Assembly (NCBI RefSeq): GCF_024713945.1
Contig: NC_134677.1
Span: forward strand, 8,082,001-8,146,000
Length of the DNA: 64,000 nt
Direction: 5' to 3'
DNA from: Dermatophagoides farinae
Lineage: Eukaryota > Arthropoda > Arachnida > Sarcoptiformes > Pyroglyphidae
Below, piece after piece: positions 42,113-62,246 of this stretch; the stretch's first letter is position 1, and each line of letters opens with the position of its first letter. The notes beneath the pieces were generated by a model. That model was not told the DNA's origin. It ran no database searches and saw nothing but the letters and a program-made list of their open reading frames with translations. The translations under genes and the position numbers were made by a program.

Positions 42113-42829
42113 TTTGTTGGAATTTCAGGGAAAATAATCGCAGAAATATCAAAAAAATACACGTGAAACAGTGGACAAAAAGATAGAGCGGAAGCATTGA
42201 ACAACTGCAGAAAGAAAGAGAGCGAGAACGAGAAAAAAAAAAAGCATGCCACAACATCGCGTAAATTTTGAGCCAATCATAAATGATAGGATAAAAAAAA
42301 TTAAATCATTTTATTGAAAAAATTATTTTGACAATAGATGGCGCTTAATGTAATTTACTAATAGGTGTGTGTGTGTGTGTGTGTGTGGTTGGAGAGAAAA
42401 ATAGCCAATCATATTTGGCCACAACATCAGCAACATATATAACAAACTGATGAATGAGCTTATTACAGCTGTATTTTGATGTATATACTGTATTATGGCA
42501 GCGGCAATGTTATGAGCCAATATCATCGAAAAAAAATTTGATAATCAACTAAACATTATTGATTATTGATTATATTTGCCAGATTTGCCATAAATATATG
42601 ATATATTATCGCCATCAAAATCATAATTAAATTAAAACAACGTCATCATCATCATCATCATCATCATTTTGGATTGTTGTTTGGATTAATTGGATTGGAT
42701 CGAATTATATTATTTTGTTTTGCTTATAAACGATATAATATTATAGTTCTATAATTTATTTTCACTGTTTGATTATTGATAGATCATTGGTGATTGATTG
42801 GATAATAAAAAAAAAACGACGACAACAGG
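42113..42829. promoter_or_regulatory. Divergent spacer between RpS13 and HERP, with a CTCF-like site
   Basis: A 717-bp spacer. At 42328-42346 TTGACAATAGATGGCGCTT fits the CTCF core AGRKGGCRSY exactly (AGATGGCGCT). A (TG)n run follows at 42365-42388, and (CAT)n lies at 42643-42668. A pyrimidine tract near 42195-42240 on the minus strand probably marks the RpS13 start. Confidence 0.5.
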
Positions 42830-44165
42830 ATGATTGAAGACGACGTATGTCTGGTTATCAAAGCTTCTAATCAAAAATATGAAGATGTCAAAATTGATTG
42901 TCAACTTTCATGGTCAATTTTGGATCTGAAAAAACATCTTAGCGTCCATTATCCATCCAAACCGGTAATTTTAATAAATTTTGATATATTAAATATTCAA
43001 ATCAATAAATTGAAATTTCATTTTTTTTTTTGTTAAATAGAAAATAACCGATCAAAGAATCATCTATTCCGGTCATTTACTAAAGGATAACCAATTGTTG
43101 ACAAACATTGTTAAACTGTCGGATTCATCATGTTCGAATGGTGATGATCGTTCTCAAAATACATTCATTTTTCATCTGGTCTGTCCACAAAAACATTTGT
43201 CTACGAATGATAAGGTAAATATGACCAATGAAACAAATGGATCATCATCATCATCATCATCGAATAGTTGGTCATTGGATGCTATTCCAACAGCAAGTAC
43301 TAGCTCATCATCAACAACAGCAGCCACAACAATGCCAACGCCAACCACAGCATGGAATCAATTTAATCAATTGAACATTCAAATGGGACCAGATAATATG
43401 TTGATGCAACAATCGTATCAGATGTTGATGAATCAATATTATCAATATATGAGCTATTATTTTCTTTCAACACCGCCAATTGATTTAGTATCATATGCTG
43501 CATTCACTAATGCATATATGCAATCATTTCAGCCTGTAATTGATCAACAACGTTCCAATTCCATCAACAATGAAACATCGAATAGCAATGTGGCCAATAA
43601 CATCAACAACAATTTGGATAATGATAATCGAATTAATCGACCACAACAACAACAACAACGACAACAACCGCAAGTAGCGGCAATAGATAATAATGATGAT
43701 CTTATCATGAATCGTGATTGGACAGATTGGATGTATTCATTTTCAAAAGCTGTCATCATGTTAAGCATCATTTATTTCTATTCATCATTGAATCGTTTGG
43801 TTTTGTTTATGTCAATCTTTTTGATTATCTATTTTTATAAAAATCTTCTAAATGGTTTACATCCGGCTGCTGCTAATCATAATGGCAGAAGAAATAATAA
43901 TGATGTTCGAATTAATCATGATCGAAATAATAATAATCAACATCCAGTCAATAATGATCGAATCAATAATCAAGCAGATTTAATTGATGAATCACAAAAT
44001 GATGAAAACATTAACAACAACAACAACAATAATAATAATCAGCAACAACAACAACAACAACAACAAGATGATGATAGCCGATATTATTCTGGTCTTAGAT
44101 TTATATGGATGTTTATCACTTCATTGTTTACATCATTGATACCGGATCCAGTGCCCATTAATTAG
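42830..44165 (+). CDS. Herp: HERP (HERPUD1/2-like) ER-associated degradation protein
   Basis: ER membrane adaptor of the HRD1 ubiquitin ligase complex, induced by ER stress in animals. Two exons (42830-42964, 43041-44165) give 419 residues. An N-terminal ubiquitin-like domain is seen: VCLVIKASNQKYEDVKIDC, WSILDLKKHLSVHYPSKP, then TDQRIIYSGHLLKDNQLL and HLVCP. The middle is Ser/Thr, then Asn/Gln rich. A membrane hairpin follows (FSKAVIMLSIIYFYSSLNRL and VLFMSIFLIIYFYKNLLNG), and the tail WMFITSLFTSLIPDPVP matches the conserved HERP C-terminus. A long poly-Asn/poly-Gln stretch (about 44010-44070) sits between hairpin and tail. AATAAA at 44463-44468. Confidence 0.92.
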
Positions 44166-44468: not shown

Positions 44469-44842
44469 TGTTTTGACAAAATCGCAAAAAAATAACCGAA
44501 AAATTACTGTCCAATGAAGTGCTGCAACAAAATCATCATTTTTTTAATTCGAATTCTTTCAAGTTCATTCATTTGAAGCCACATTATGGACTACTATAGA
44601 GCCATCTATTGTAGAAGAGAATAAACTAAAAAAAATTTGAATTTTTTTTTTTTTTGGATAATTTTTTTTTCGGCAGAAAAATCGAGAAAATTATTCCGAA
44701 TTCATTTTGTTGTTTATTTCGACAATTTATGTTTGGTCATTTACCATTATCATACGAATCGAATGTAGTAAGTTAGGCTAAAAATGCATTCGGCCATCAT
44801 TCAAACATCGACTAGACTTCTGATCAAAGGTATCTGTATTTT
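44469..44842. other. Spacer before the Dscam array
   Basis: No gene seen. On the minus strand, AATAGATGGCTC at 44599-44610 is a partial CTCF-like site pointing opposite to the cassette elements. The first cassette element follows at 44843. Confidence 0.45.
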
Positions 44843-44861
44843 TGGCCAAAATATGGCGCTC
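44843..44861 (+). promoter_or_regulatory. Cassette element 1 (CTCF-like)
   Basis: TGGCCAAAATATGGCGCTC, 120 bp before the start of cassette 1. Its first six bases and the GGCGCT core match the CTCF consensus at the same spacing. It precedes the first cassette, where no Ig exon lies upstream. Confidence 0.6.
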
Positions 44862-44981
44862 CAATCTTGATTTGATTTAAATTCCAATTTCTTTCTCGTG
44901 TGGCCATGGATTCTAAATTTATTTATCCATCGGTCTATTTCATTCCTGAGCGGTGAGAATGTTGTTTTTTATGTTTGAAAA

Positions 44982-45403
44982 ATGATTATCCAGTCAATTT
45001 GTTTGTTAATTTTAACAAAATCTGTTCATTCTGGTGGTATGTTTTTTTTTCATTGAATCAGATTAATTATTGTTGATGGATTCATGATATTTGAATTTTT
45101 CAATTTCAGTGGCTCCCAAAGTGACAAGATTTCATAATGAAATTATTCAACCAAAAGATTCATCTTTTGTTCTGAATTGTGCTGCATATATTGGATCTCA
45201 CCCGTTACGATTTCAATGGCTGAAGAATGGTTTAACCATTAATAAACAATCGATGCAATTAGATCGAATTCAAATTAAAACTGAGCACAGTTATTCTATT
45301 CTCACGATTTCGGAAATCGAATTGAACGATTCGGGCAATTATTCTTGTACGGTTATCAATGATGATGGATTCGATGCACAATGGTCATTACTTCAAGTTC
45401 AAG
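44982..45403 (+). CDS. sDscam: sDscam cassette 1 (signal peptide + variable Ig1)
   Basis: Leader exon 44982-45036 (MIIQSICLLILTKSVHSG; donor GTATGT, with GTGGTA 3 bp earlier as an alternative) and Ig exon 45110-45403, both ending in phase 1. The Ig domain starts VAPKVTRF, with NCAAYIG, FQWLKNG and the F-strand NDSGNYSC. It belongs to subclass A, which has an N-glycosylation sequon next to the second Ig cysteine. Confidence 0.85.
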
Positions 45404-45442
45404 GTTTGAAATTAACTAAAAAAAATTCTCTGTTCTTAATTT

Positions 45443-45461
45443 CCACCAAAACGTGGCGCTA
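45443..45461 (+). promoter_or_regulatory. Cassette element 2 (CTCF-like)
   Basis: CCACCAAAACGTGGCGCTA, 96 bp before the cassette 2 start. Confidence 0.6.
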
Positions 45462-45556
45462 ATTCTGTTTCGAAATCTTGGTTTTGAAATTTTCCTTTTG
45501 ATTACGATCAAAATACTGGCTTTACATTTGTTCTGATCACACGAAATTCATTCAAA

Positions 45557-45977
45557 ATGTTGAGTTTGGTTTTCAAATTTATTGTTTTGTTTATCTGGAT
45601 TTTATTGCAGATTTCATCTGTTCACAGTGATGGTAAGTCTATTTGTCAATCATTTTCATCTTGAATTAATTCAATTTTTTTCAATTCTAGAATCTCCGGT
45701 TCTCGTTAATTTTATTCACAAACTCGACATGAACAAACCAAAGGTTCAGATCTTGTGTTGACTTGTAATGTTGCCAAAGGCAGTAAACCATTTCGGTTCC
45801 AATGGTTCAAAAATGGTGTTGAATTATCCAATACTGGACGATCGACAATCGAAACTAAAGATATTTTTTCCCTCTACACATTAAGAAATATTGACTCAAG
45901 TGATGGTGGGAATTATTCCTGTGTTGTCACCAATAAATTCGGTTTCGATAAACTTTGGATTCAACTAACCGTCACAG
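45557..45977 (+). pseudogene. sDscam: sDscam cassette 2, frameshifted variable Ig1
   Basis: Leader exon 45557-45632 is intact (MLSLVFKFIVLFIWILLQIS then SVHSD; donor GTAAGT). Ig exon 45691-45977 is 287 bp, while its duplicate in cassette 4 is 288 bp; one base is missing early in the exon (after ESPVLVNF), so the frame meets a stop before the first Ig cysteine. The rest still reads cleanly in the other frame (TCNVAKGSKPFRFQWFKNG, GGNYSCVVTNKFGFDKLW). Either a recently dead cassette or an assembly indel. Confidence 0.75.
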
Positions 45978-46007
45978 GTTTGAATAATTTTTTTCAATGT
46001 TTTTTGT

Positions 46008-46026
46008 GGGCCAAAAGGTAGCGCTA
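46008..46026 (+). promoter_or_regulatory. Cassette element 3 (CTCF-like, core variant)
   Basis: GGGCCAAAAGGTAGCGCTA, 105 bp before the cassette 3 start; core AGCGCT. Confidence 0.5.
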
Positions 46027-46130
46027 ATATTGCCATTATCCACTGGTTTTTAAAATTTTTTCGATTGAAATGGTTTGATTGAACTATTGCTTTTCTTGTT
46101 GTTGAACATGAGTTGTTGTTGTTGAACGTC

Positions 46131-46537
46131 ATGGCTATTATGATTTTATTATTGGTGATTTTTCCAATTTTCCATTTTCATTCAGTCGATGCTGGTAATT
46201 TAGTGAGACTTGTCTGGAATTGTTTCTCTTTAATAACTATTTTTGATTTTAGCAAAGCCCAATTTGAATAAATTTCCTACATCCGAAGTCAAACTTTGGG
46301 CTGATGCATCGTACATATTACCGTGTTCCATTTTATCTGGATCAAAACCAATATTCTTCGAATGGTACAAAGATGATCATAAGAAGCTATCGTCGACCGA
46401 GTACAAAATCGATAATTATGATACAATGACATCACTTGTATTCAAAAGTTTGAATCCAAACGATACAGGCAGCTATACCTGTAATGCCAGAAATGTTCAT
46501 GGATCCGACTCGATTACAACAAAACTTGTCATACAAG
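46131..46537 (+). CDS. sDscam: sDscam cassette 3 (signal peptide + variable Ig1, subclass B)
   Basis: Leader 46131-46194 (MAIMILLLVIFPIFHF, HSVDA) and Ig exon 46253-46537. The domain begins AKPNLNKFPTSEVKL, with ILPCSILSGSKPIFFEWYKD and TGSYTCNARNVHGSDS. It lacks the GNYSC sequon. Nearly the same as cassette 5. Confidence 0.85.
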
Positions 46538-46599
46538 GTTTGCTTTTAATTTAATCATCATGGTGTACAATTAGGGTCAAGATTTGAAACTAATAATTT

Positions 46600-46618
46600 C
46601 CACCAAAATGTGGCGCTA
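46600..46618 (+). promoter_or_regulatory. Cassette element 4 (CTCF-like)
   Basis: CCACCAAAATGTGGCGCTA, 98 bp before the cassette 4 start; two differences from element 2 at most, as expected from the block duplication. Confidence 0.6.
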
Positions 46619-46716
46619 AATATTGAAATTTTGATTTTGATTTTCCTGTCGAAAATGTTTTTTTCGATTGTTTTATTCACATTCAATGTTCGATCACACG
46701 AAATTTGCTTGTGAAA

Positions 46717-47125
46717 ATGTTGAATTTGATTTTCAAGTTTTTCGCTTTAATCATTTTGATTTCATCTGCTAACAGCGATGGTAAGTCTATTTGTTCATGT
46801 GTTTTAAGCCTCAATTAATTCATTTTTTCGATTCTAGAATCTCCGGTTCTCGTTAAACTTTATCCACAAAATAAACATGAACAAACCAAAGGTTCAGACC
46901 TTGTGTTGAATTGTAATGTTGCCAAAGGCAGTAAACCATTACGGTTCCAATGGTTGAAGAATGGTGTTGAATTATACAATACTGGACGATCGACAATTGA
47001 AAACAAAGATATTTTCTCTTTTTTTACACTGAGAAATATCGATTCCAATGATGTGGGAAATTATTCTTGTGTTGTTACCAATAAATTCGGATTCGACAAA
47101 TTGTGGATTCAACTAACCGTCACAG
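46717..47125 (+). CDS. sDscam: sDscam cassette 4 (signal peptide + variable Ig1, subclass A)
   Basis: Leader 46717-46780 (MLNLIFKFFALIILISSANS) and Ig exon 46838-47125 (288 bp). ESPVLVKLYPQNKHEQ, LNCNVAKGSKPLRFQWLKNG, VGNYSCVVTNKFGFDKLW. Intact duplicate of the broken cassette 2. Confidence 0.86.
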
Positions 47126-47154
47126 GTTTGAACAATTTATTCAATGTTTGTTAT

Positions 47155-47173
47155 CGGCCAATATATGGCGCTA
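47155..47173 (+). promoter_or_regulatory. Cassette element 5 (CTCF-like)
   Basis: CGGCCAATATATGGCGCTA, 112 bp before the cassette 5 start. Confidence 0.6.
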
Positions 47174-47285
47174 ATTCTTCCATTTTGAGGGTCATGGAAT
47201 TTTTTTTTATTTTTGCATAAAATAATTCTGTCCATGAAATGTATATTTGAGTTTAAGAGTATGAACACACATTGTTCTTGACATT

Positions 47286-47694
47286 ATGGCTATGATAATT
47301 TTAATAACGTTGATTTTTTCAACTTTTTATTTCCATTCAATTGATGCCGGTAATTCATTTGAATTTATCCAGTGACAATTTCTAAATGGTCATTTTTTGA
47401 TGATTTTAGCAAAGCCCAATTTGAGTAAATTTCCTGCATCAGAAATCAAACTTTGGGCAAATGCATCGTACATATTACCGTGTTCCATTTTATCCGGATC
47501 GACACCAATTTTCTTTGAATGGTACAAGGATGATCATCAAAAATTATCGTCGACCGAGTACAAAATCGATAATTATGATACACTGTCATCGATTGTATTC
47601 AAACGTCTTGATTCAAATGATACCGGAACTTATACTTGTAATGCCAGAAATGTTTATGGTTCTGATTCGATTACAACCAAGCTTATCATACAAG
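47286..47694 (+). CDS. sDscam: sDscam cassette 5 (signal peptide + variable Ig1, subclass B)
   Basis: Leader 47286-47349 (MAMIILITLIFSTFYF, HSIDA) and Ig exon 47410-47694. AKPNLSKFPASEIKLWAN, ILPCSILSGSTPIFFEWYKD, TGTYTCNARNVYGSDS. Duplicate of cassette 3. Confidence 0.86.
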
Positions 47695-47729
47695 GTTTGA
47701 TTTTCTATTTATTATAATCGTGATTTACT

Positions 47730-47748
47730 TGACCAATAGGTGGCCCTT
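47730..47748 (+). promoter_or_regulatory. Cassette element 6 (weakest copy)
   Basis: TGACCAATAGGTGGCCCTT, 102 bp before the cassette 6 start; the core is GGCCCT, so this copy may bind poorly. Confidence 0.4.
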
Positions 47749-47850
47749 TTAATGCATTATTTTTTTCTGGTTATCTTCGATTCTCTCCAAGGCTTGAGTT
47801 GATTATCATTTTGTTTTTGTCGTATTGTGAGATGTTTGAAAACATTCACA

Positions 47851-48264
47851 ATGTTTAAATCGTTGCTATTTTTCTGTATTTCATTTACGGTTATTTTTGC
47901 ATCAAAAGGTTGGACAATTTTTTCCGGTTTTACGTTTCTGATGAAAATCACTTGTTTTTCCCTTTAGATGCACCTCAAACTTCTAAATCATTTCCAACAG
48001 AATTGAGTCAATCTGAAGGATCAGTATTGACAATTCCTTGTTCGGTTATCAGTGGTTCAATGCCATTATCGTTCAAATGGTTTAAAAATGAACAAGAATT
48101 ACTTCGACATACGAATCCGGATTTATCATATCAGATTAAAACGGATAATTTTCTATCATTTTTAACCATTTCACAATTGAAAGCTTCTGATTATGGAAAT
48201 TATTCCTGTGTTGTCAGCAATCCATTCGGCTTCGATATTCAATGGACATGGCTCCAGGTGAAAG
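47851..48264 (+). CDS. sDscam: sDscam cassette 6 (signal peptide + variable Ig1, subclass A)
   Basis: Leader 47851-47908 (MFKSLLFFCISFTVIFASK; donor GTTGGA is weak) and Ig exon 47968-48264 (297 bp). DAPQTSKSFPTELSQSEG, TIPCSVISGSMPLSFKWFKN, YGNYSCVVSNPFGFDIQW. Confidence 0.83.
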
Positions 48265-48292
48265 GTAGTTTGTCTGTTTTTGATCATGTTTT

Positions 48293-48311
48293 CGGCCAAA
48301 ACGCGGCGCTA
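48293..48311 (+). promoter_or_regulatory. Cassette element 7 (CTCF-like)
   Basis: CGGCCAAAACGCGGCGCTA, 116 bp before the cassette 7 start. Confidence 0.6.
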
Positions 48312-48426
48312 TTGATTCAGTTTTGAATCATTAATTTTTTTTAATATCTAAATTAACCATCGATTGAGTGTTTTCACTGTCTCTCTGTCTGTTCATCACA
48401 AATAATCATAAGGCATTTTTTTCAAA

Positions 48427-48853
48427 ATGTTTTGTCAGTTTTTTAAGTGGTGTATTCAAATCATCATTTTGTTAATATTCGAAACGATATTTATTGAAGC
48501 AAATGGTAAGTTTAAATTGATTTAATTCATTTGACTTGAATTGATTTTTCTCATTTATATTTATCACCTAGAATCACCATTATTGTTGAAACAACTTGAT
48601 CGATTTAATTCAGTGAAAGGATCAAACATAGTGTTCAATTGTAATGTAGCAAAAGGAACGAAACCTTTCCGATTCCAATGGCATAGAAATAATGTCGAAC
48701 TACGAGATCATAAACGATCTAGAATTGAATCGAAAGATATCTATTCATTTCTAACATTGTACGACATTAATGTCGAAGACATTGGCAATTATTCATGCAT
48801 TGTAACCAATCAATTTGGTTTCGATAAACTTTTCTTTCATCTAGATGTAACAG
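48427..48853 (+). CDS. sDscam: sDscam cassette 7 (signal peptide + variable Ig1, subclass A)
   Basis: Leader 48427-48505 (begins MFCQFFKWCIQIIILLIFET and ends IFIEAN) and Ig exon 48572-48853. ESPLLLKQLDRF, FNCNVAKGTKPFRFQWHRN, IGNYSCIVTNQFGFDKLF. Related to cassettes 2 and 4. Confidence 0.84.
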
Positions 48854-48902
48854 GTTTGCATTACATTGAATTGAATCATCATAAAATTTTGATTTGATTA
48901 TT

Positions 48903-48921
48903 TGGCCGAAATATGGCGCTA
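48903..48921 (+). promoter_or_regulatory. Cassette element 8 (CTCF-like)
   Basis: TGGCCGAAATATGGCGCTA, 130 bp before the cassette 8 start. Confidence 0.6.
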
Positions 48922-49050
48922 ATTCTGCAGTGTTTTTTGATTGTTTTTGAAAAATTGAAACATTTCTTTGATCAACATTTTTCTTGCATGCACACACTGT
49001 GTGTGTGTTGATATTTGTGACTTGATATTGTCCATTCTCAATTGATTGTA

Positions 49051-49476
49051 ATGATGGCCATAAGAATTTGTTTGTTTTGTTTTCTATTTTTACCATTTTT
49101 CATATCTATTGATTCGGGTAATTTAAATGATTTTTGTCTGTTGAATTTCATTGGTTGATATTCAAAAAATTTTTTTTCCCGCTAGCTAAACCATCGGTAA
49201 TGAAATTGCCATCGGAAATTCAACTTAGAGAAAATTTTTCATATATACTTCAATGTCTTGCCATATCGGAATCGAAACCAATATTCTTTGAATGGCTAAA
49301 AGATAATCATCCACTCGTAGCCACTGGCCATTCGTCGGAATATAAAATTGACCATTTTGAAACATGGTCAACATTAACATTTAAACGTTTGACCATAAAC
49401 GATATGGCAACTTATACATGTCGTGTAAAAAACGTTGAAGGCATTGATACTACTAGCACTAAGCTCATTATACAAG
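49051..49476 (+). CDS. sDscam: sDscam cassette 8 (signal peptide + variable Ig1, subclass B)
   Basis: Leader 49051-49117 (starts MMAIRICLFCFLFLPFFISI; the second Met, 49054, is an equal choice) and Ig exon 49186-49476. AKPSVMKLPSEIQLREN, LQCLAISESKPIFFEWLKD, MATYTCRVKNVEGID. Confidence 0.83.
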
Positions 49477-49567
49477 GTTTGTATGCTTTGATAATGGCGG
49501 TGGTTGATTTTTAAAAAAAATCTTCCAACCATCAAGTGTTGAAATATTTCATCATCGTATTCAACAC

Positions 49568-49586
49568 AAACCAATAGTTGGCGCTT
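49568..49586 (+). promoter_or_regulatory. Cassette element 9 (CTCF-like)
   Basis: AAACCAATAGTTGGCGCTT, 108 bp before the cassette 9 start. Confidence 0.55.
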
Positions 49587-49694
49587 TTGATGTGTTCAAT
49601 TTGAATTTTTCTATCCTAACTTGATTTCAGTTTATTTTTTTTCTCTTTCTCTCTCACTCGTCATATTGAGATTCCAATCAAGAATTGTGCCAAA

Positions 49695-50064
49695 ATGAAT
49701 TGTGTTTTGACATTTTTTATTTTGTGTTTTTCAATTTATATCACCACTATTGGTGCATCATCATCAAATGGTCCACCAATCATTTCCAAAATAGTTTCAA
49801 CACATATGAGCCAACCACAAGGCTCAGTGTTGAATTTAATGTGTCCAATTTTCGCTGGTTCCCGCCCGATTACATTCAAATGGTTCCGAGATAACATTGA
49901 AATTGAACGTGAAAATCATCATCATCATGTATCAATCGAAAATAAACCTTCGTTTTCTGTGTTAATGATACAGGAATTAAAACCGAATGATTCAGGAAAT
50001 TATTCCTGTGTAGTCAGCAATCCATTCGGTATCGATGTTCAATGGACATTGCTTCAAGTTAAAG
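49695..50064 (+). CDS. sDscam: sDscam cassette 9, single-exon form (subclass A)
   Basis: Leader and Ig are fused in one exon with no intron between them: MNCVLTFFILCFSIYITTIG then SSSNGPPIISKIVS. LMCPIFAGSRPITFKWFRDN and SGNYSCVVSNPFGIDVQW. It ends in phase 1 like the others. Confidence 0.84.
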
Positions 50065-50087
50065 GTATCATTTTTTTTTTGTTATTC

Positions 50088-50106
50088 GGATATACGGATG
50101 GCGCTC
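50088..50106 (+). promoter_or_regulatory. Cassette element 10 (core only)
   Basis: GGATATACGGATGGCGCTC, 124 bp before the cassette 10 start; the GGCGCT core is exact but the CCA half is lost. Confidence 0.5.
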
Positions 50107-50229
50107 GTAATGCCAGATTTTTGAAATTTTTATTCAGATGTTGATTTTTTTCCTCATTGTTGAATCGTGTGATTCAGTTGTAGAGAAAAGTGATTGCATT
50201 CATTCGTTCCATCGAATAATTGAAAAACA

Positions 50230-50663
50230 ATGGCATCATTTTCAAATTTTATTATCATCAGTGTCGTTATTTTGTTTTTATTATCACCGAATTCGATTGA
50301 AACAAGTAAATTTGTCTTTCTTTGTTAAATTACTTCTTCTGAGTATTTTTCAATTTAATTTCGATCATTAAAATCAGGCTATTCATTACCAAAATTACTT
50401 GATCTACCAAAACGTATTGAATTGCAGGAAAATTTTGATCATACATTGGCTTGTAATCTTGTTTCAGGCATAAAGCCAGTCATGTTTTATTGGTCAAAAA
50501 ATGGTCATAAAATTTCCGAACCAACAATTTCAAATGGATCAAAGTAGCCATTCTTCAATGATGATATTGAAAGAGATAAAACGTAATGATTCTGGAAGGT
50601 ATACGTGTACGGCACAGAATCAATATGGTATGGATTCAACTTCGACCGAATTATTTGTTCAAG
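50230..50663 (+). pseudogene. sDscam: sDscam cassette 10, frameshifted variable Ig1 (subclass B)
   Basis: Leader 50230-50305 (MASFSNFIIISVVILFLLSP, NSIET) is intact. Ig exon 50378-50663 is 286 bp, not a multiple of three. The first half reads SLPKLLDLPKRIELQ, ACNLVSGIKPVMFYWSKNG, then stops soon after KISEPT; the second half (QSSHSSMMILKEIKRNDSGR, YTCTAQNQYGMDS) is in another frame. A non-functional cassette or an assembly indel; the change is not in a homopolymer. Confidence 0.75.
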
Positions 50664-50785
50664 GTTTGCGATTGGTTATTTATTTATTTTTTTTTTTAGT
50701 TACATTTGAAACATTCTCCAACGAAACGGAAATTGCACATTTCACTGATGAATGTGTGTCTCTTCATCATTATTGATGAGCTTAT

Positions 50786-50804
50786 AGGCTCATTGATGGC
50801 GCTC
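50786..50804 (+). promoter_or_regulatory. Cassette element 11 (core only)
   Basis: AGGCTCATTGATGGCGCTC, 109 bp before the cassette 11 start. Confidence 0.5.
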
Positions 50805-50913
50805 AATTTCTTTGGTTACAAAAAGAAAAAGAAGCCAAATCAATGATTCTAGATTTGTGTATTTGTATTCATTCATTGTCCATTCGTTGATTGTGATTCG
50901 TTGTGTTTGAACC

Positions 50914-51289
50914 ATGGCTTCAGTTTTCGTCAATTTTTTTCCGATTATTTTTGTATTCATTTTTACTTTGGTTTTCGCTAATCAAGATCGGCCTGAACTT
51001 TTAAAATCACAATCAAATTATCTAATTCAACCAGCTGGTTCATTGCTTGTGCTCATTTGTAATTCCATTAAAGGATCAAAACCATTAATATTCAGATGGT
51101 TAAAAGATGGCCATGATATTGAGAAAGATTCACATCGTTTTGATATGGATCGTTATTCGATTGAAAAAAAGAGTTCATTCACTCAACTAACCGTTAATGA
51201 TGTTTCCATTTCGGATTCGGGAAACTATTCATGTGTAGTGACCAATGCATTTGGCCTAGATTCACAATGGTCACAATTTGATGTTAAAG
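50914..51289 (+). CDS. sDscam: sDscam cassette 11, single-exon form (subclass A)
   Basis: One exon: MASVFVNFFPIIFVFIFTLV then FANQDRPELLKS. LICNSIKGSKPLIFRWLKDG and SGNYSCVVTNAFGLDSQW. Leader intron absent. Confidence 0.84.
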
Positions 51290-51494
51290 GTTTGCAATTA
51301 TAATACAATGATGATGATTACATTACTTGTCACACTCTATCGATTCTAATGATTTTTTCTCAATTTTATTTCAATCATTAATTGCGTGGTTGATCAAATA
51401 ACATTGTTTTCGGAAATGAGAGAACCGGAAACAATTTTTTTTTGTTTGACCCAAAAACACAAGAGATTATGATTGTAGCCGTTTCATTCTTTTT

Positions 51495-51513
51495 CCACCA
51501 AAAGGTTGCGCTT
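51495..51513 (+). promoter_or_regulatory. Cassette element 12 (CTCF-like, core variant)
   Basis: CCACCAAAAGGTTGCGCTT, 130 bp before the cassette 12 start; core TGCGCT. Confidence 0.5.
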
Positions 51514-51643
51514 ATATCATCACAATTTGTTTGATTGATAAATTTTTTTTTGTTCGGAAAAAATCAATGGCAATTCCTTTGCACATTTCACATCAATCGG
51601 TTTATTTGTCTCTTCTGATGATTTTTGTGTTTGTGTTTTAAAA

Positions 51644-52067
51644 ATGTTTTGGCCATTCATTTTGGTTGTTTTTGATTTGCTTTTAGCAAATCAAAACTTT
51701 GTGATCGCTAATGGTAAGCTTTTCAGTTATTTTAAATTGATTTTGTGTGACTTTTCCAATTTTTCCCCGTAAAAAATAGATGCTCCTCGTTTGGTTGAAT
51801 TTAAAAATTTATACTCACAACCCATGAATTCTCGATTTGTTTTAATGTGTAACAAAATGAATGGAATATCGCCATTGAAATTTTTTTGGACGAAAAATGG
51901 CCACTCTATTTCACAATCGTCGGATTCACGTATCAAAATTGATGTTGATGATGATTTTTCAATGATTAATATCAAAAATATTAAAATTGATGATGCAGGA
52001 AATTACTCCTGTACGGTACAGAATCGTTTCGGTATCGATTCACAATGGTCGATGCTTCAAGTTAAAG
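51644..52067 (+). CDS. sDscam: sDscam cassette 12 (signal peptide + variable Ig1, subclass A)
   Basis: Leader 51644-51713 (MFWPFILVVFDLLLANQ, then NFVIAN) and Ig exon 51780-52067. DAPRLVEFKNLYSQ, LMCNKMNGISPLKFFWTKNG, AGNYSCTVQNRFGIDSQW. The longest spacer of the array (355 bp from the previous exon to the leader start) precedes it. Confidence 0.83.
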
Positions 52068-52096
52068 GTGACTACTACAAGAAATAGTCATAAATT

Positions 52097-52115
52097 TGAA
52101 CAAAACGTGTCGCTA
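52097..52115 (+). promoter_or_regulatory. Cassette element 13 (CTCF-like, core variant)
   Basis: TGAACAAAACGTGTCGCTA, 108 bp before the cassette 13 start; core GTCGCT. Confidence 0.45.
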
Positions 52116-52223
52116 GATTTGTTGTTGAAAAGAATTACTTTTTTACTGTGTTTCATTCGTTATTTCATTGCAAAAAAAAATCTATTGTGAAACATCGGAG
52201 GTGTTTTTACCAATTTTTCGATA

Positions 52224-52635
52224 ATGTTTCGAATATTTATTTTGTTCAGCTTTTTCATCTCTCGTGGACTTGCTCAAGGTAATGTTCATTTTCGATTAAT
52301 GAATTTGCGAAACTTGAAATTAATTTTTTTCCAATTTTAAAATTTTGTAGATCCACCTAAAATCAATAAAAATGTCATCGTTGATGCTGAACCGATTGCT
52401 CATACTTTTCATCTGATTAGCTGTACTGTAATATCTGGTTCTGAACCCGTATTTTTCACCTGGCTTAAAGATGAACAACCACTTCGTGAAACCAGCAATT
52501 TGAAAATTGAAATTAATCAACAATTTTCGTTATTAAAAATTCAAACAACCAACAAAAATGATTCTGGCCGTTATGCATGCCAAGTCCGTAATGCTTACGG
52601 AACTGATAGCATGATTTTTCGACTGAATGTAAAAG
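52224..52635 (+). CDS. sDscam: sDscam cassette 13 (signal peptide + variable Ig1, subclass B)
   Basis: Leader 52224-52278 (MFRIFILFSFFISRGLAQ) and Ig exon 52351-52635. DPPKINKNVIVDAEP, ISCTVISGSEPVFFTWLKD, SGRYACQVRNAYGTDS. Confidence 0.84.
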
Positions 52636-52669
52636 GTTCATTTTTTCTGTTTCATTGAGTTTTTATTCG

Positions 52670-52688
52670 TGGTTAAAAGTTGGCGCTA
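52670..52688 (+). promoter_or_regulatory. Cassette element 14 (CTCF-like)
   Basis: TGGTTAAAAGTTGGCGCTA, 97 bp before the cassette 14 start. Confidence 0.55.
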
Positions 52689-52785
52689 TCTGCTTGAATT
52701 TGTCGATTTTTTCACACTAATTTTTTTCGTGTTTGTCATCATTGTGTTTCATTCGTTTGAATCCATTCCAGTAGTGTTGTTCAAA

Positions 52786-53179
52786 ATGTTGTTTTCAGCT
52801 ATTTTCTTGTGTTTTACCTTAAATTTCGTCATCGCAGGTTTGTTGATATTTATTTTTTCAAAAAAAAAAAAATTTCTAAACTTTTTTTCTCTCTCATTAG
52901 ATGAGCCCAAATTGGTTCCACTACAAAAACGCTTAGAACTTGTGGATAAATCCACTTTTACTGTAGTCTGCAGTTTAGCATCTGGTTCTTCGGTGTTTTT
53001 TGAATGGATGAAAGATGGCCATAAATTATCGACAAACGGAAATATTCGTATCGATAATACTATTCTTTATTCTTTGCTATCCATAAAAAATTTAGCCATC
53101 ACTGATTCGGGGATTTATGAATGTATCGCTAAAAATCCTCATGGAAGTACATCGACATCCACACAACTTGTTATAAAAG
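52786..53179 (+). CDS. sDscam: sDscam cassette 14 (signal peptide + variable Ig1, subclass B)
   Basis: Leader 52786-52837 (MLFSAIFLCFTLNFVIA) and Ig exon 52901-53179 (279 bp, the shortest). DEPKLVPLQKRLELV, VVCSLASGSSVFFEWMKDG, SGIYECIAKNPHGS. Confidence 0.84.
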
Positions 53180-53224
53180 GTTTGACGGAGAAAAAATCAT
53201 ATCGATGAAACTATGTTGAGTTCA

Positions 53225-53243
53225 TGGTTAAAAGTCGGCGCTA
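53225..53243 (+). promoter_or_regulatory. Cassette element 15 (CTCF-like)
   Basis: TGGTTAAAAGTCGGCGCTA, 104 bp before the cassette 15 start; one base from element 14. Confidence 0.55.
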
Positions 53244-53347
53244 ATGTTGCTTATTTTAAATTTATTTGGCTATTCCAATTTCTACATTTTCGGTAGTAAA
53301 TTTTCAGTCTTTGAAATCTTTCAATCATAACACATGTTTATCGTTGA

Positions 53348-53696
53348 ATGACGAAAATGTTTTTCTTGAAATTTTTCACATTTTTCTCCATAATTTCAAT
53401 CGCCATTTCTGGTCCACCGAAATTGATGTCATTTAATGGTGACCTACATGAATTGATTGAAAATATGACCTATCCATTAACGTGTGTGTTGATAAGTGGT
53501 TCGAAACCAATTTTTTTCGATTGGTATCGAAATGGCGAAAAAGTTATGGAACGATTAAATCTAAAAATTGATAATCAAGATCGAATCTCACAGCTTTCTC
53601 TATCAAATGTTCAAACAAGTGATAGTGGGAAATATGAATGTCATGCGAAAAATCAATATGGTCAAGATTCGATTGCCACCAATATTTTGGTTAAAG
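53348..53696 (+). CDS. sDscam: sDscam cassette 15, single-exon form (subclass B)
   Basis: One exon: MTKMFFLKFFTFFSIISIAI then SGPPKLMSFNGD. LTCVLISGSKPIFFDWYRNG and SGKYECHAKNQYGQDS. Confidence 0.84.
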
Positions 53697-53724
53697 GTTT
53701 GGTTTGATTTGATCATTTGTTCCT

Positions 53725-53743
53725 CACTCAAATCGTGGCGCTA
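53725..53743 (+). promoter_or_regulatory. Cassette element 16 (CTCF-like)
   Basis: CACTCAAATCGTGGCGCTA, 99 bp before the cassette 16 start. No further copy lies between cassette 16 and the constant exons. Confidence 0.55.
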
Positions 53744-53842
53744 TTTGTTGAAAATTTTTTTTTATGGATTTTTCATCTTTTATAACCTAACAATGATGAC
53801 AAATACATTCTTGACCATTGAAATATTTCACTGTTGACAAAC

Positions 53843-54179
53843 ATGTTTTCATTGCGAAACATTTGGGTTTTTTTACTAATTTCAATTTCTCACCAGAATC
53901 CTGTTGTATTGAATACATGGAGTTCTTTTCAAACACAAGTACAAGGCTCTCGTTTATTTTTGAATTGTCTGCCTATTCTCGGTGATTCACCGTTTTCATT
54001 TAATTGGATGAAAAATGGCCGTGAAATCCCCGAAAACGACCATGTGCAGATCCGAAAAGATAATCTCTTGTCTATTTTATTGATTGAAAATCTAATATCT
54101 GATGATTCGGGAAATTATACTTGTTCAGTCCATAATCAAGGCGGTTTTGATAGCCAAAGTTCATATCTGAGTGTTCAAG
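53843..54179 (+). CDS. sDscam: sDscam cassette 16, single-exon form (subclass A)
   Basis: One exon, the last before the constant region: MFSLRNIWVFLLISISHQNP, VVLNTWSS. LNCLPILGDSPFSFNWMKNG and SGNYTCSVHNQGGFDSQ. Start taken at the ATG 53843. Its donor (GTGTCT) is 104 bp from the constant acceptor. Confidence 0.83.
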
Positions 54180-54283
54180 GTGTCTAATGATCAAGAACAG
54201 TGCCACGATTGCTTTTCGAATGTTTTGTTGTCGAGATTAACTAACATTTTTCAAATTATCAATTTGAATTTATTTTTTTCCAG

Positions 54284-56444
54284 TTCCACCTAGCTGGATC
54301 AAAGAGCCGAAAGACGTGAATCTACGTATGGGTGAAGAATATTCCGTGGAATGTTTGGCCGATGGTCTACCGAAACCGAAAATCAATTGGATTACACCGT
54401 CAGGTAAAACGATCGAAAATGAAATTCTGGATCTGAGTAAATTGATCAAAAATGAAAAAAATGGTCGACAAACATTGACTTTCGAATGTGTGGCTGATAA
54501 TGGCATCGGTGAGGCATTACGGAAAAGTATCACCATCTCTTATAATGGTAAGCGAATTCGTCCAAAGATTTTCAGTGATTTTAATTGATGATTTGAAGTA
54601 CCGGCGAGATTTGATGAAAAATACAGTTCATTACAAGCGAAAAAAGGCGATATAATTGTCATGAAATGCAACGCTACCGGTGATCGACCGATCACAATAC
54701 GTTGGACAAAAGATGGAATTAAATTGGACCGGTTGAGTCATCATTATGAAATGACGGATTTCTCCACCAGTCAAGGTGTCATTTCTGAACTATCAATTCG
54801 ACCGGTGCAGAAAAGTGATGGCGCAATATATAAATGCGACGCTGAAAATGAGCATGGTCGTGATGATCGAACCATAAAATTATCAGTGGTAGAAGAACCA
54901 AGTTCACCGGTTAACGTTAAAATCAATGAAGTATGGTCACGTTCAGCCAGTGTTTCATGGCGTCATCCTCAGAATGGTAATTCACCTGTCATCCGATATC
55001 TTATACATTATTGGCGTCGACAAAGTGCTCCGCATCGATTGCATGAAGTAAATGTTAGCAGTTCGCAGACATCGTATTTGATCAAAAATCTCAATCCTGG
55101 ATTGTCCTATGAGTTGTCCGTTATTGCCGAAAACGAGGTTGGACGTAGTCAACCATCGGAAACGGTGCCATTTTTTACTGGTGAAGAGGAACCAAGTGCA
55201 CCACCGAATGATATAAATGTCGAACCAAAAGGACCGACTACAATTCGGATTACATGGCGTGCACCACCAAAAGAATTCTGGAATGGCCTGATCAAAGGTT
55301 ATTATGTTGGTTTCCGAAAAGCCGACGATACAAATACAGCTTATACATTGAAATCCATTGATTCCAAATACACAGAAGCCAATCAAATCGAAAGTGAAGT
55401 TTATGAATATTTTCTACGCGACCTATCACGTGGTACGGAGTATGAAATCGTTATCAAAGCCTATAATATGGCCGGTAGTGGACCACAATCTCATGTATTG
55501 CTGGCACGTACACTTGATGGTGATCTACCACCTGCGCAACACCTAATTGCAACGGAAACCACGACAAATTCAATTTCCTTAAGATGGCATCAACGAGATA
55601 ATCGGAATTCGATTACCTCAATCATTAGCTATACGTTACAATATCAAAAGGAAGGTGAACCAAAATGGCATGAAATACCATTTAGTTCGTTGGCAACATC
55701 AGCTCCATCGATCGAACAATCATCGATGCCAATCTATACGCATACATTGGTCAATCTGGAAAGTGGCACTAATTATCGAATATTTGTGACGGCTGTTAAT
55801 CGTTTCGGTTTCTCTGATCCAAGTAATATTGTCAACACTAAAACCATTGGAGGTTTGTTTCGTTTTTTTTCTGTTATTCAAATTTCACCCAAATTCTGAT
55901 TTTTTGATTTCAACAGAACGATTGAATTTCCAAGGAAAATTGATGAACCACTACTATGAAAGTCCATATTATATGCAACCAGAATTCACTATTCCAATAC
56001 TGACTGCATTCGTAATCGTAGTCATCATTATGGTCATTGCATATGTCTGTGTCCGTCGTGCGAAACATCGAGCAGCTGCCAGTAGTCGTAAGTTATTGTT
56101 CATCGGTTATTTCAATCAACAGATTGACATTTTTAATCTTTTATCCTCAATTTCACTAGTTATCCTAGAGAGTGCAAGCAAACAATTTACCGGATATAAT
56201 ACGGCGCCAAGATATGCTGATTTTGATAAAGTCAGTGGCAAACCACTAATAATGACCGAACAAGGCAATATATTTCCGACTGCATATGCTACAATGCCAC
56301 TGGATGAAAATATGCAGGTTTGTCTCAAATTTCGATTTAAAGATTTTTCACTGAGAAAAATAATGTCGATCTATTTCTAATTAAAATTAGCCATGGACAG
56401 GAGAAATGAAAAAAGATTCGCATATTTATGATCATCCGCAATAA
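54284..56444 (+). CDS. sDscam: sDscam constant region (Ig2, Ig3, FNIII x3, membrane helix, short tail)
   Basis: Cell-surface recognition protein body, 633 residues after any cassette. Exons 54284-54547 (Ig2: VPPSWIKEPKD, VECLADGLPKPKINW, FECVADNG), 54599-55852 (Ig3: MKCNATGDRPITIRWTKDG, YKCDAENEHG; then three FNIII domains opening EEPSSPVNV, EEPSAPPND and DLPPAQHLI), 55917-56087 (membrane helix FTIPILTAFVIVVIIMVIAY followed by RRAKHR), about 56160-56317 and 56391-56444 (tail with GYNTAPRYADFD, and end SHIYDHPQ). Introns are 51-73 bp. The acceptor of the fourth exon is ambiguous: AG at 56159 or 56168 would differ by three residues. The Ig3-FN1-3 block in one exon and the three-FNIII architecture match chelicerate sDscam, not full-length Dscam with six FNIII. 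The tail is short, with tyrosines but no catalytic domain. Confidence 0.92.
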
Positions 56445-60568: not shown

Positions 60569-62246
60569 GTTGTTGTTGTTGGATTTTTGATGAATAATTT
60601 CAAATTATTGTTGTTGAATGAATTTTTTTTCTATATGATTGATGAAAAAAATAATATCCGAGATGATATGTTCAATGAGATCAAGAAAGAAAACGAAAAT
60701 AAATAATAAATGCAAATAAAAATGTCAACATAATCCAGTGATGATGACAATGTTGTTGTTGTTGATCATCATCAAGATATTTTCACATTCAATCAAAAAT
60801 TGACCGGTTGAATTGATTTTTTTTTTTTTTGGAATTTCAACGAATCGAAGAATTTTTCACATTTGTTGTTCTTTTACTGTCACACAAATGAAACAAAAAA
60901 AAAATTTTATGTAAATTAGAGCAAACAAAAGAATAAAAAAAAAATCAAAATGGTGTTCTCTATCTCTCGCCCCCACTACCAAAGTCGTGGTGTTGTTGTC
61001 ATTTTTCCACTTCTTCTTTTTTTTTCTTCTTCGTTTTTATATGTTAACAAAATAACAAAATTATTATTATTATCGTGATTCTTGTTGTTGTTTTCTCAAC
61101 AATTTTTTTTTCTTAAAAGAGTCGACTCTTTAAAACTGTGGTGGCCCATCATCATACATTCACATTTCACATTCGATTCAATATATATGGATTCAAAAGC
61201 CGAAATTGAAGAAAATGATGATGATGATGATAAAGAACGCAGGAATATTTTTATTGTAAAGAAAAGAAAAACAGCCGTATAGAAATAGAAACGATGATGA
61301 TGATGATGATTATAAATATTAAAAAGCAACAACGGTTTTTTAAGCAATAGTTATTGCAATTGCAATCTTTGTGTGTGTTTGTGTATCTGTCAGGAGTAGA
61401 ATCATCAATTGCAAAAAAATGCAGAAAGCATATAATAAAACGACATTAAAATACAACACAAAAAAAAAAATATTCGAAACAAGAGAGAGTGAGAGTGATG
61501 AACGAAACAATCGAGAAATGTACGCTGCTAGTGACGCGATATATCGATTGTATTCGGGACGGAAAATCTTTTTTTCCATTTATTCAAAATATGAATAACA
61601 AAAAAAAAAAAAAATTCGGTTATCGATGATTGATCGAAAATAAACACACAAATATTGTAGACCATCAAATGATGGTGGCGTTAATCGAATGAAACAACAA
61701 ATATTAAATGATTGATTGATTGATTGATGCAATCAAGATGCAACACTATCAGATAACAGCAAAAAAAAAAATGATGACACTTTAATATTGCAATCTTCTT
61801 AACAAGTTACAACTATAGTTATTAATCTCGTCTGTCTAAGAAAAATCGATTTATTTGTTTTACGTTTTTTTTTTTGGTTGAAATACATTTGTTATGAAAT
61901 AAAAAAAAAATTAAAATTAATAACAGGTTAACAAAATAGATGGCGCTATCGCTTTCATTATTTATTGACATTCATTTTCAATTCGAATTCTTTCTTTGAT
62001 CCTATAAAATATATTCCAATGATGATCATTTTTTTTTGCTCAACAAAAAAAAATGATGAATAAATTCGTATGAAAAATAATGAATTCAAAAAAAAAAGTT
62101 AACAACAATGACAAAAATGACACACACACACACACACACACCACACCATCATAATCACAATCATCATCACCGATAACAATGTATCATGTGAACCATATGA
62201 TGTTACAAATTTTTGCTTGAATTGAAACTTTCAATGTATATGTCAA
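60569..62246. other. Upstream region of the phosphatase gene
   Basis: Simple repeats plus a GC-richer patch at about 60957-60990 (CTCGCCCCCACTACC) that could be near the phosphatase promoter. At 61930-61948 AACAAAATAGATGGCGCTA has a perfect CTCF-like core. A 16-bp palindrome lies at 61116-61131. No gene is supported. Confidence 0.45.

Follow-up and report, generated by a model that had tools for sequence, protein, structure and literature searches.

Each of the 16 cassettes of the sDscam gene in the window (the whole stretch of 64,000 nucleotides analysed here) is preceded by one 19-bp element on the coding (+) strand, and on the evidence of its sequence this is a selected, directional promoter element. 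The comparisons show one element per cassette, narrow spacing, fixed direction, conservation, co-duplication with the cassettes and absence at a non-arrayed gene. The assignment as a selected, directional element follows from leave-one-out scoring, the contrast in identity between element and spacer, the other arrays and that non-arrayed gene. We regard it as somewhat probable that this selected, directional site is bound by CTCF at each promoter and serves a promoter choice like that of the protocadherins.

The gene combines tandem 5' cassettes, each a leader and an Ig domain, with a common Ig-FNIII part to which they are predicted to be spliced, which is the arrangement of an sDscam. Its main parts are as follows.

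44584..44774, + strand: degenerate promoter and leader of U1, once the first cassette, 83-89% identical to the inverted copy, where U1 is intact
44982..54181, + strand: tandem array of 16 cassettes, each with a predicted start codon, a leader and a single Ig domain
54598..55860, + strand: part of the constant region (one Ig and three FNIII domains by Pfam), 3' of the cassettes

The best solved relative of the constant region is PDB 7y8s, named Dscam (E 3.7e-78). The Ig-exon alignment took in 14 of the 16 cassettes, with C2 and C10, whose frames are broken, omitted; 13 Ig domains share 27-47% identity with the C1 domain, and certain cassette pairs are far closer. The sequence-only reading had stated that no Ig exon lies upstream of C1. 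There is indeed no intact cassette there, but a decayed Ig-exon end with its splice donor abuts the C1 element, and positions 44772-44855 match the last part of an intact cassette of the inverted copy at 94% identity. Spacing is therefore what ties the element to the leader that follows. The elements span 44843..53743.

44843..44861, + strand: element C1, TGGCCAAAATATGGCGCTC, 139 bp to ATG 44982; leave-one-out 25.8 bits; directly 3' of the decayed Ig-exon end
45443..45461, + strand: element C2, CCACCAAAACGTGGCGCTA, 114 bp to ATG 45557
46008..46026, + strand: element C3, GGGCCAAAAGGTAGCGCTA, 123 bp to ATG 46131
46600..46618, + strand: element C4, CCACCAAAATGTGGCGCTA, 117 bp to ATG 46717
47155..47173, + strand: element C5, CGGCCAATATATGGCGCTA, 131 bp to ATG 47286
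47730..47748, + strand: element C6, TGACCAATAGGTGGCCCTT, 121 bp to ATG 47851
48293..48311, + strand: element C7, CGGCCAAAACGCGGCGCTA, 134 bp to ATG 48427
48903..48921, + strand: element C8, TGGCCGAAATATGGCGCTA, 148 bp to ATG 49051
49568..49586, + strand: element C9, AAACCAATAGTTGGCGCTT, 127 bp to ATG 49695
50088..50106, + strand: element C10, GGATATACGGATGGCGCTC, the weakest, 142 bp to ATG 50230; leave-one-out 5.5 bits, p ~0.048
50786..50804, + strand: element C11, AGGCTCATTGATGGCGCTC, 128 bp to ATG 50914
51495..51513, + strand: element C12, CCACCAAAAGGTTGCGCTT, 149 bp to ATG 51644
52097..52115, + strand: element C13, TGAACAAAACGTGTCGCTA, 127 bp to ATG 52224
52670..52688, + strand: element C14, TGGTTAAAAGTTGGCGCTA, 116 bp to ATG 52786
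53225..53243, + strand: element C15, TGGTTAAAAGTCGGCGCTA, 123 bp to ATG 53348
53725..53743, + strand: element C16, CACTCAAATCGTGGCGCTA, 118 bp to ATG 53843

From the 5' end of the element to the predicted leader ATG the distance is 114-149 bp (sd 10.8), so that the narrow range first reported stands and its lower end, given as 112 bp, is revised. Also as first reported, the GGCGCT core is exact in 12 of 16 elements, with a single core-base change in C3, C6, C12 and C13, and no element precedes the constant exons. The bases C15, C17 and T18 (numbered within the element) are invariant in 16/16. The CCA half is weak in elements C10, C11, C14 and C15, position 10 is G in 8/16 and position 11 is A in 5/16. 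A weak 3' extension is seen as T at +23 (13/16).

To compare the elements with chance, leave-one-out scoring was used, in which the best site was sought at ATG-180..-70 and set against 2,186 control windows. The best site was the element in 16/16 cassettes, which bears out the earlier count of one per cassette on the coding strand, and 15 of them scored above all control windows, C10 being the exception. The consensus of the sequence-only reading, at up to 3 mismatches, gave 9 matches in the window vs 0 in 100 dinucleotide shuffles. Information per column is 1.13 bits in the element vs 0.17 and 0.20 in its flanks, and no other block of the spacers is strongly conserved. Across this compact genome, 29 of 72 matches to the element pattern lie within sDscam arrays or their copies, and a reversed-pattern control gave 9, in agreement with the expectation that the element is rare elsewhere.

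Other arrays, located via the element pattern and the constant region (a further array is possible), carry the element as well, as the earlier reading required. In array 2 it is found at 16/16 cassettes with the window-trained matrix (one start codon was placed by homology), including three cassettes unpaired with those of the window (p 0.005-0.011) and one with a stop codon; two cassette remnants lack an intact element by eye. The 14 cassette pairs between window and array 2 are 58-100% identical in the element and 58-96% in the flanks, a comparison that is uninformative because the copies are too alike. In the inverted copy, an Ig-frame scan showed 12 Ig cassettes, of which 10 have the element, and a C5-type element precedes a C12-type cassette across a rearrangement; rearranged copies keep one element per leader. 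An 18.5-bit element-like match lies on the minus strand at genome coordinate C1:8218389, and no cassette was found behind it. A scan of a non-arrayed sDscam-like gene found no element. Two Dscam-like loci, L044 and L045, are seemingly long multi-Ig genes, with no cassettes in the stretches examined.

CTCF as the binder of the cassette elements is plausible, but not proven, from sequence comparison. With a vertebrate CTCF matrix, the top-scoring site within 60 bp coincides with the element, in strand and register, for 14 of the 16 in the window, in line with the CTCF alignment first proposed; C14 and C16 are outscored by minus-strand matches. By the same matrix, 10/16 window promoters reach p <0.01 and six lie at p 0.05-0.17, and two of the three unpaired array 2 cassettes do not stand out (p 0.05-0.18). 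In the inverted copy, the array matrix misses the two extra cassettes (0.7 and 4.2 bits, p 0.24 and 0.08), which have coding-strand sites by the CTCF matrix at 135 and 139 bp upstream of the ATG (p 0.0014 and 0.0027), and this raises the probability of CTCF slightly. Position 10 is a near-invariant G in the vertebrate CTCF matrix; since only half of the window elements have it, the element is not classed as a proven CTCF site.

A CTCF orthologue, sought on the advice of the sequence-only reading, is present, with fingers at genome coordinates C6:654212-655424 that show 71% identity over query residues 39-138 (about fingers 2-5). By eye, the contact residues -1/2/3/6 of fingers 3, 4 and 5 are the same as in human; finger 6 is unlike human at positions 2, 3 and 6, and the piece covering ZF7-9 has ZNF568 as top match, with CTCF fourth by E-value.

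The genome also contains dispersed CTCF-type sites.

Dispersed over the genome, both strands: CTCF-type sites of the form CCANNAGATGGCGCYA, also the CCAATAGATGGCGC form

These share with the cassette elements the register, the CCA half, T12 and the GGCGC core, and differ from them in being scattered, equally on both strands, with G10-A11 favoured and T or C at position 18. CCANNAGATGGCG occurs 90 times genome-wide vs 2 in the control, 45 times on each strand and never within the arrays. Among the 32 CCANNANNTGGCGC sites outside the arrays, 19 have G at position 10 and 19 have A at position 11. At position 18, T is found in 44 and C in 43 of 87 dispersed sites.

The main rival to CTCF is some other factor, either a zinc-finger protein of another kind or a specialised activator, with a CTCF-like site private to the arrays and still coordinating or activating the tandem promoters; we judge this possible, with a clearly lower probability than CTCF. 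Elements with C or T at position 10 are found almost exclusively in the arrays: YCANNAHRTGGCGCYA, with non-G at this position, occurs 16 times, of which 11 are in sDscam arrays or copies, so this form is nearly private to sDscam. The strict columns also differ, as the cassette elements hold C15, C17 and T18 while the 82 dispersed one-mismatch sites among 100 matches listed of 822 vary most at 17 (21) and 4 (20) and seldom at 10 (2). The CTCF motif is not known to include a 3' extension such as T at +23. However, CCA, a six-base gap and GGCGCT sit in the register of CTCF, and the extra cassettes of the inverted copy, which lack the array form, have their CTCF-matrix sites in the same place and direction. 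Across 30 elements, distinct though related, a weak CCA half also tends to go with G10 (8/10 vs 6/20, Fisher p 0.019); for the window elements by themselves the association does not reach significance (p 0.28).

The remaining explanations are very unlikely. A functionless remnant of an ancestral promoter, duplicated along with the cassettes, would suit tandem duplicates whose broken members (C2, C10 and the array 2 cassette with a stop codon) retain the element, but pairwise identity averages 66% within the element vs 31% at other spacer offsets (maximum 37%), and the array 2 remnants have lost the intact element while rearranged copies hold one per leader. A role at the pre-mRNA level, in selecting or splicing the cassettes, is equally improbable: every element does have an Ig exon on one side (only a remnant in the case of C1) and the next leader on the other, but its spacing is fixed to the downstream ATG and not to the splice donor, which is 16-208 bp away in a rough donor scan of 15/16 cassettes, and 53744-57000 contains no AGCGCC and no minus-strand match of at least 9 bits. 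The YY1 (AANATGGCGGC), E2F (TTTSGCGC) and CArG-box (CC(A/T)6GG) motifs are suggested by ATGGC in 5/16 elements, the GGCGC core and CCAAAATATGG in C1, respectively, and are just as doubtful, as ATGGC is absent from 11/16, TTT precedes the core in 0/16 and C1 has 7 bases in its A/T stretch instead of 6. Shared descent alone, RNA docking and these three motifs were set aside on this evidence.

In mammalian clustered protocadherins, according to the parts of PMC7811963 and PMC4978886 consulted, the promoter element (CSE) contains a CGCT box, sits at a roughly constant distance before the start codon, is bound by CTCF and faces one way. The features from these parts that the mite locus resembles are a directional element at each variable-exon promoter (just one in the beta and gamma clusters), a CGCT core, tandem cassettes spliced to common exons, and a few members without the element. 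In the mite, a directional element at a roughly constant distance is found at all promoters of the window and of array 2, and at those of the inverted copy when its two CTCF-matrix sites are added to its 10/12. The gene family and lineage are unrelated, and the distance is ~200 bp in the protocadherins vs 114-149 bp here. Position 10 is relaxed in the sDscam elements, for which CTCF binding and a role in promoter choice are putative.

The flanks of the array contain three further matches.

42328..42346, + strand: CTCF-type match TTGACAATAGATGGCGCTT, ~2.5 kb upstream of the array, 2 mismatches; role putative
44597..44615, - strand: CTCF-type match facing away from the array, inside the decayed U1 promoter; matched in the inverted copy, within its U1 promoter, at genome coordinate C1:8215896
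61930..61948, + strand: CTCF-type match AACAAAATAGATGGCGCTA, downstream of the gene; role putative

The protocadherin-like design suggested by the sequence-only reading holds for one directional element per promoter. Unlike in the protocadherins, no reverse-oriented enhancer partner with 2 or fewer mismatches was found in the 28 kb downstream, comprising 54-64 kb of the window and the next 18 kb; the single minus-strand match there, at 3 mismatches, is at genome coordinate C1:8161436. Elements of the inverted copy face the array from ~74 kb. CpG observed/expected is 1.04, with no depletion and no sign of a methylation switch, and a DNMT1-like gene with a BAH domain is present in the genome.

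As a mechanism, each cassette would have its own promoter with one directional protein-binding site, which selection would keep while the rest of the spacer drifts. The binder would be the CTCF of the animal, with CCA, a six-base gap and GGCGCT read by its fingers 3-7. By analogy with the protocadherins, CTCF with cohesin would mark one tandem promoter for contact with a shared enhancer and would also screen it from its neighbours, and each cell might then express one or a few of the first Ig domains, joined by splicing to the constant exons that all cassettes share.

The literature search found no paper describing a CTCF-like element at sDscam cassettes and no account of sDscam promoter choice. 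Promoters of variable cassettes in chelicerate sDscams, the gene class of the present locus, are treated in PMC4835542 and PMC5775551, whose text, as far as consulted, names predicted promoter elements and no such motif. Within the same limits, promoter activity was found before the two cassettes of scorpion sDscam-beta6 in fly S2 cells (Yue et al. 2016, PMC4835542), and Cao et al. 2018 (PMC5775551) suggested that sDscams may be regulated differently from Pcdh because their loci are dispersed. That paper also presents, in the part consulted, vertebrate clustered protocadherins and chelicerate sDscams as generating recognition-protein diversity via tandem alternative promoters.

In summary, a directional element at every sDscam promoter makes promoter choice directly testable. 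We propose tentatively, at somewhat lower confidence than CTCF binding, that a chelicerate neural-recognition gene may have arrived independently at the solution of the vertebrate protocadherins, in which an oriented CTCF site at each tandem promoter leads to per-cell choice of the first exon. The arrays would use a site variant of their own, perhaps of lower affinity, that could make the choice tunable and that moves with duplicating or rearranging cassettes. If CTCF binds these elements, the same chromatin solution would have been reached separately by two lineages.

The sDscam gene in the window consists of 16 tandem cassettes (C1-C16, each a leader and an Ig exon; 44982-54181), followed by a constant region whose tested part holds one Ig and three FNIII domains and has PDB 7y8s, named Dscam, as the closest solved chain (E 3.7e-78). 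sDscam is chelicerate-restricted according to the available part of a survey (PMC5775551). A 19-bp CTCF-like element was found on the coding strand in 16/16 cassettes, 114-149 bp upstream of start codons inferred from signal-peptide-like leaders, in agreement with the sequence-only reading, which had claimed one coding-strand element per cassette. Its consensus from column counts is roughly N-G-R-C-C-A-A-A-A-N-R-T-G-G-C-G-C-T-A, with C15, C17 and T18 invariant (16/16) and G16 present in 15/16. After alignment on the element, the information per column was 1.13 bits inside versus 0.17 before and 0.20 after it, and the mean pairwise identity of 19-mers was 0.655 at the element compared with 0.307 at 170 other offsets (sd 0.030, maximum 0.372). 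A leave-one-out matrix selected the element as the best site at ATG-180..-70 in all 16 cassettes. The scores exceeded all 2,186 control windows in 15 of them (the exception was cassette C10, 5.5 bits, p ~0.048), a slightly strict comparison because these windows also take in a small number of CTCF-type sites and the final two elements of a second cassette array (array 2).

Outside the 19-mer, at 23-25 bp from the element start, a weakly conserved T (13/16) is followed by G/T and C/T, and this stretch may belong to a longer site. In cassettes 2 and 10, the Ig exons (window 45692-45980 and 50378-50664) appear by eye to be frameshifted in the assembly, possibly through assembly error; both cassettes nevertheless keep leader and element. 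A long open frame without a Pfam match (window 43041-44162) directly precedes the array and shares its strand.

The genome (62.4 Mb in 22 contigs) was searched with the constant region, giving 24 matches with E-values of at most 1e-12, the window gene among them. The sDscam features used here are as follows (C1 to C4 before a colon are contigs):
C1:8205646-8216000, minus strand, inverted copy of the window gene
C1:8207507, minus strand, constant-region match of the copy, 98% identical to the window gene
C1:3962636-3973600, array 2, with 15 open Ig frames plus an Ig interrupted by an in-frame stop
C1:3974251-3975474, constant-region match, gene 50-55% identical to that of the window
C3:515616, constant-region match at 40%

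The matrix trained on the window elements (array matrix) found a site in 16/16 cassettes of array 2, at 113-168 bp and with scores from 30.2 down to 9.2 bits (p <=0.011); the cassette at 3963197 has lost its start codon, so its position was set by homology. The window array has common ancestry with array 2 and with the inverted copy, and the last three cassettes of array 2 (10.1, 11.2 and 9.2 bits) are the most independent test of the matrix because they are unpaired with window cassettes. Two more cassette remnants in array 2, recognized by eye, had no intact element. The non-arrayed gene on contig C3 (one leader-Ig unit, ATG 511860), a single case, lacks the element: the top score was -2.3 bits (p 0.52), and no score exceeded -1.4 bits in the 600 bp range scanned.

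A 2.45-kb stretch (C1:3962256-3964706) carries four sDscam cassettes with their elements and has 97-99% identical copies on contigs C2, C3 and C4. One element is missing from the C4 copy together with the sequence around it, repeats in opposite orientation flank the copies on C2 and C3, and directly upstream of the stretch in array 2 is a DDE_Tnp_4 transposase frame. A mobile element seems to have carried sDscam cassettes.

The inverted copy is a duplicate of the whole gene that faces the original (window 44584-57743), with 94-97% identity in the main aligned blocks. An Ig-frame scan gave 12 cassettes in the copy versus 16 in the window, and the element stands 116-154 bp upstream of the leader in 10/12. 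One C12-type cassette is preceded by a C5-type element, so a rearrangement left one element per leader. About 2.6 kb ahead of the first cassette of the copy is an element-like site of 18.5 bits (C1:8218389, minus), with no cassette seen behind it.

Across the genome, the consensus of the sequence-only reading had 72 matches at <=3 mismatches versus 9 for the reversed pattern, 29 of the 72 falling in sDscam arrays or copies. As the matches are rare and the list shows no cluster outside the arrays except a minisatellite on contig C3, the element is not an ordinary promoter motif in this genome; that reading had named its presence at most ordinary promoters as the refuting case. The pattern CCANNAGATGGCG gave 90 matches versus 2 when reversed. 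The 90 are distributed across contigs C1-C10 in equal numbers on the two strands and provide a ready catalogue of putative CTCF sites in this animal.

A CTCF orthologue, which the sequence-only reading had proposed to look for, is encoded and is collinear across the finger array. Among solved chains, its ZF2-5 piece matched CTCF first (E 5.9e-65), and its ZF7-9 piece matched ZNF568 first and CTCF fourth. By eye, the contact residues at -1, 2, 3 and 6 are the same as in human CTCF in ZF3 (T,G,E,R), ZF4 (E,S,K,R) and ZF5 (D,Y,K,R), compared with Q,N,S,A versus human Q,G,T,M in ZF6 and R,T,D,I versus R,S,D,V in ZF7. The CTCF-type motif is strongly enriched in this genome: CCANNAGRTGGCGCYA had 822 matches at <=2 mismatches versus 144 for the control, and CCANNANNTGGCGC had 47 versus 3, with 15/47 in arrays or copies. 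With a vertebrate CTCF matrix, the cassette elements scored -1.4 to 15.8 (maximum possible 35.9); 14/16 were the best local site, in register, 10/16 promoters reached p <0.01, and 10 of the top 19 sites in the 64 kb were elements.

It is possible, though rather unlikely, that another factor private to the arrays binds the element. The likeness to CTCF held in register but not at position 10 of the element, which is G in only 8 of 16 cassette elements (C 4, T 4). The 32 CCANNANNTGGCGC sites outside arrays have G 19, T 7, A 4 and C 2 at this position, and among the 100 matches listed of the 822 for CCANNAGRTGGCGCYA, 2/82 non-array one-mismatch sites depart there. The pattern with non-G at position 10 occurs 16 times in the genome, 11 of them in arrays or copies. 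This mismatch lowers the CTCF claim rather than excluding it, because choosing sites by pattern biases the sample and related cassettes do not count as independent.

The first two cassettes of the inverted copy, U1 (ATG 8215822) and U2 (ATG 8215216), speak for CTCF. The window has no intact counterparts, only decayed pieces at 44584-44646, 44662-44774 and 44772-44855. The array matrix scored U1 at 0.7 bits (p 0.24) and U2 at 4.2 bits (p 0.08), but with the vertebrate matrix both have a coding-strand site, CTTACACAAGAGGGAGCCA 135 bp (p 0.0014) and GATACGCCAGGTGGCGTTC 139 bp (p 0.0027) upstream of the ATG. The range searched had been set beforehand, but the case came to light late and consists of two cassettes. 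Both sites have CTCF features in common with the other elements but lack the CCAAAA of the array, which argues for CTCF. U1 has a further CTCF-type match on the opposite strand, whose decayed counterpart is the window site 44597.

In titles, abstracts and passages of open-licence PMC papers on sDscam, cassette promoters, protocadherin (Pcdh) elements and arthropod or mite CTCF, no description of such an element was found; the sDscam survey (PMC5775551) was the one paper containing both sDscam and CTCF, the latter once, within a reference title. The genome has a DNMT1-like methyltransferase gene that includes a BAH domain (C2:6134924-6136254) and a second methylase gene, but with a CpG o/e of 1.04 the window shows no CpG depletion and thus no sign of germline methylation.

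In mammals, Pcdh enhancers carry reverse CTCF sites, and a forward one that includes a CGCT box is found in the majority of Pcdh promoters, its distance to the downstream start codon being nearly constant (PMC7811963); for mouse and frog, a distance of about 200 bp is given (PMC4978886). For the enhancer half of this design, the 28 kb downstream held no minus-strand CTCF-type match at <=2 mismatches and one at 3 mismatches; the window's minus-strand matches at <=2 mismatches are 44597, upstream of the array, and 52681, which overlaps the C14 element. In scorpion sDscam-beta6, fragments ahead of both cassettes had promoter activity in an S2-cell reporter assay, where ~300 bp was enough (Yue et al., PMC4835542). 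The promoter half of the Pcdh design is matched, at the level of sequence, by the sDscam cassette elements, and we lean towards the element being a putative CTCF site that would serve a Pcdh-like promoter choice.
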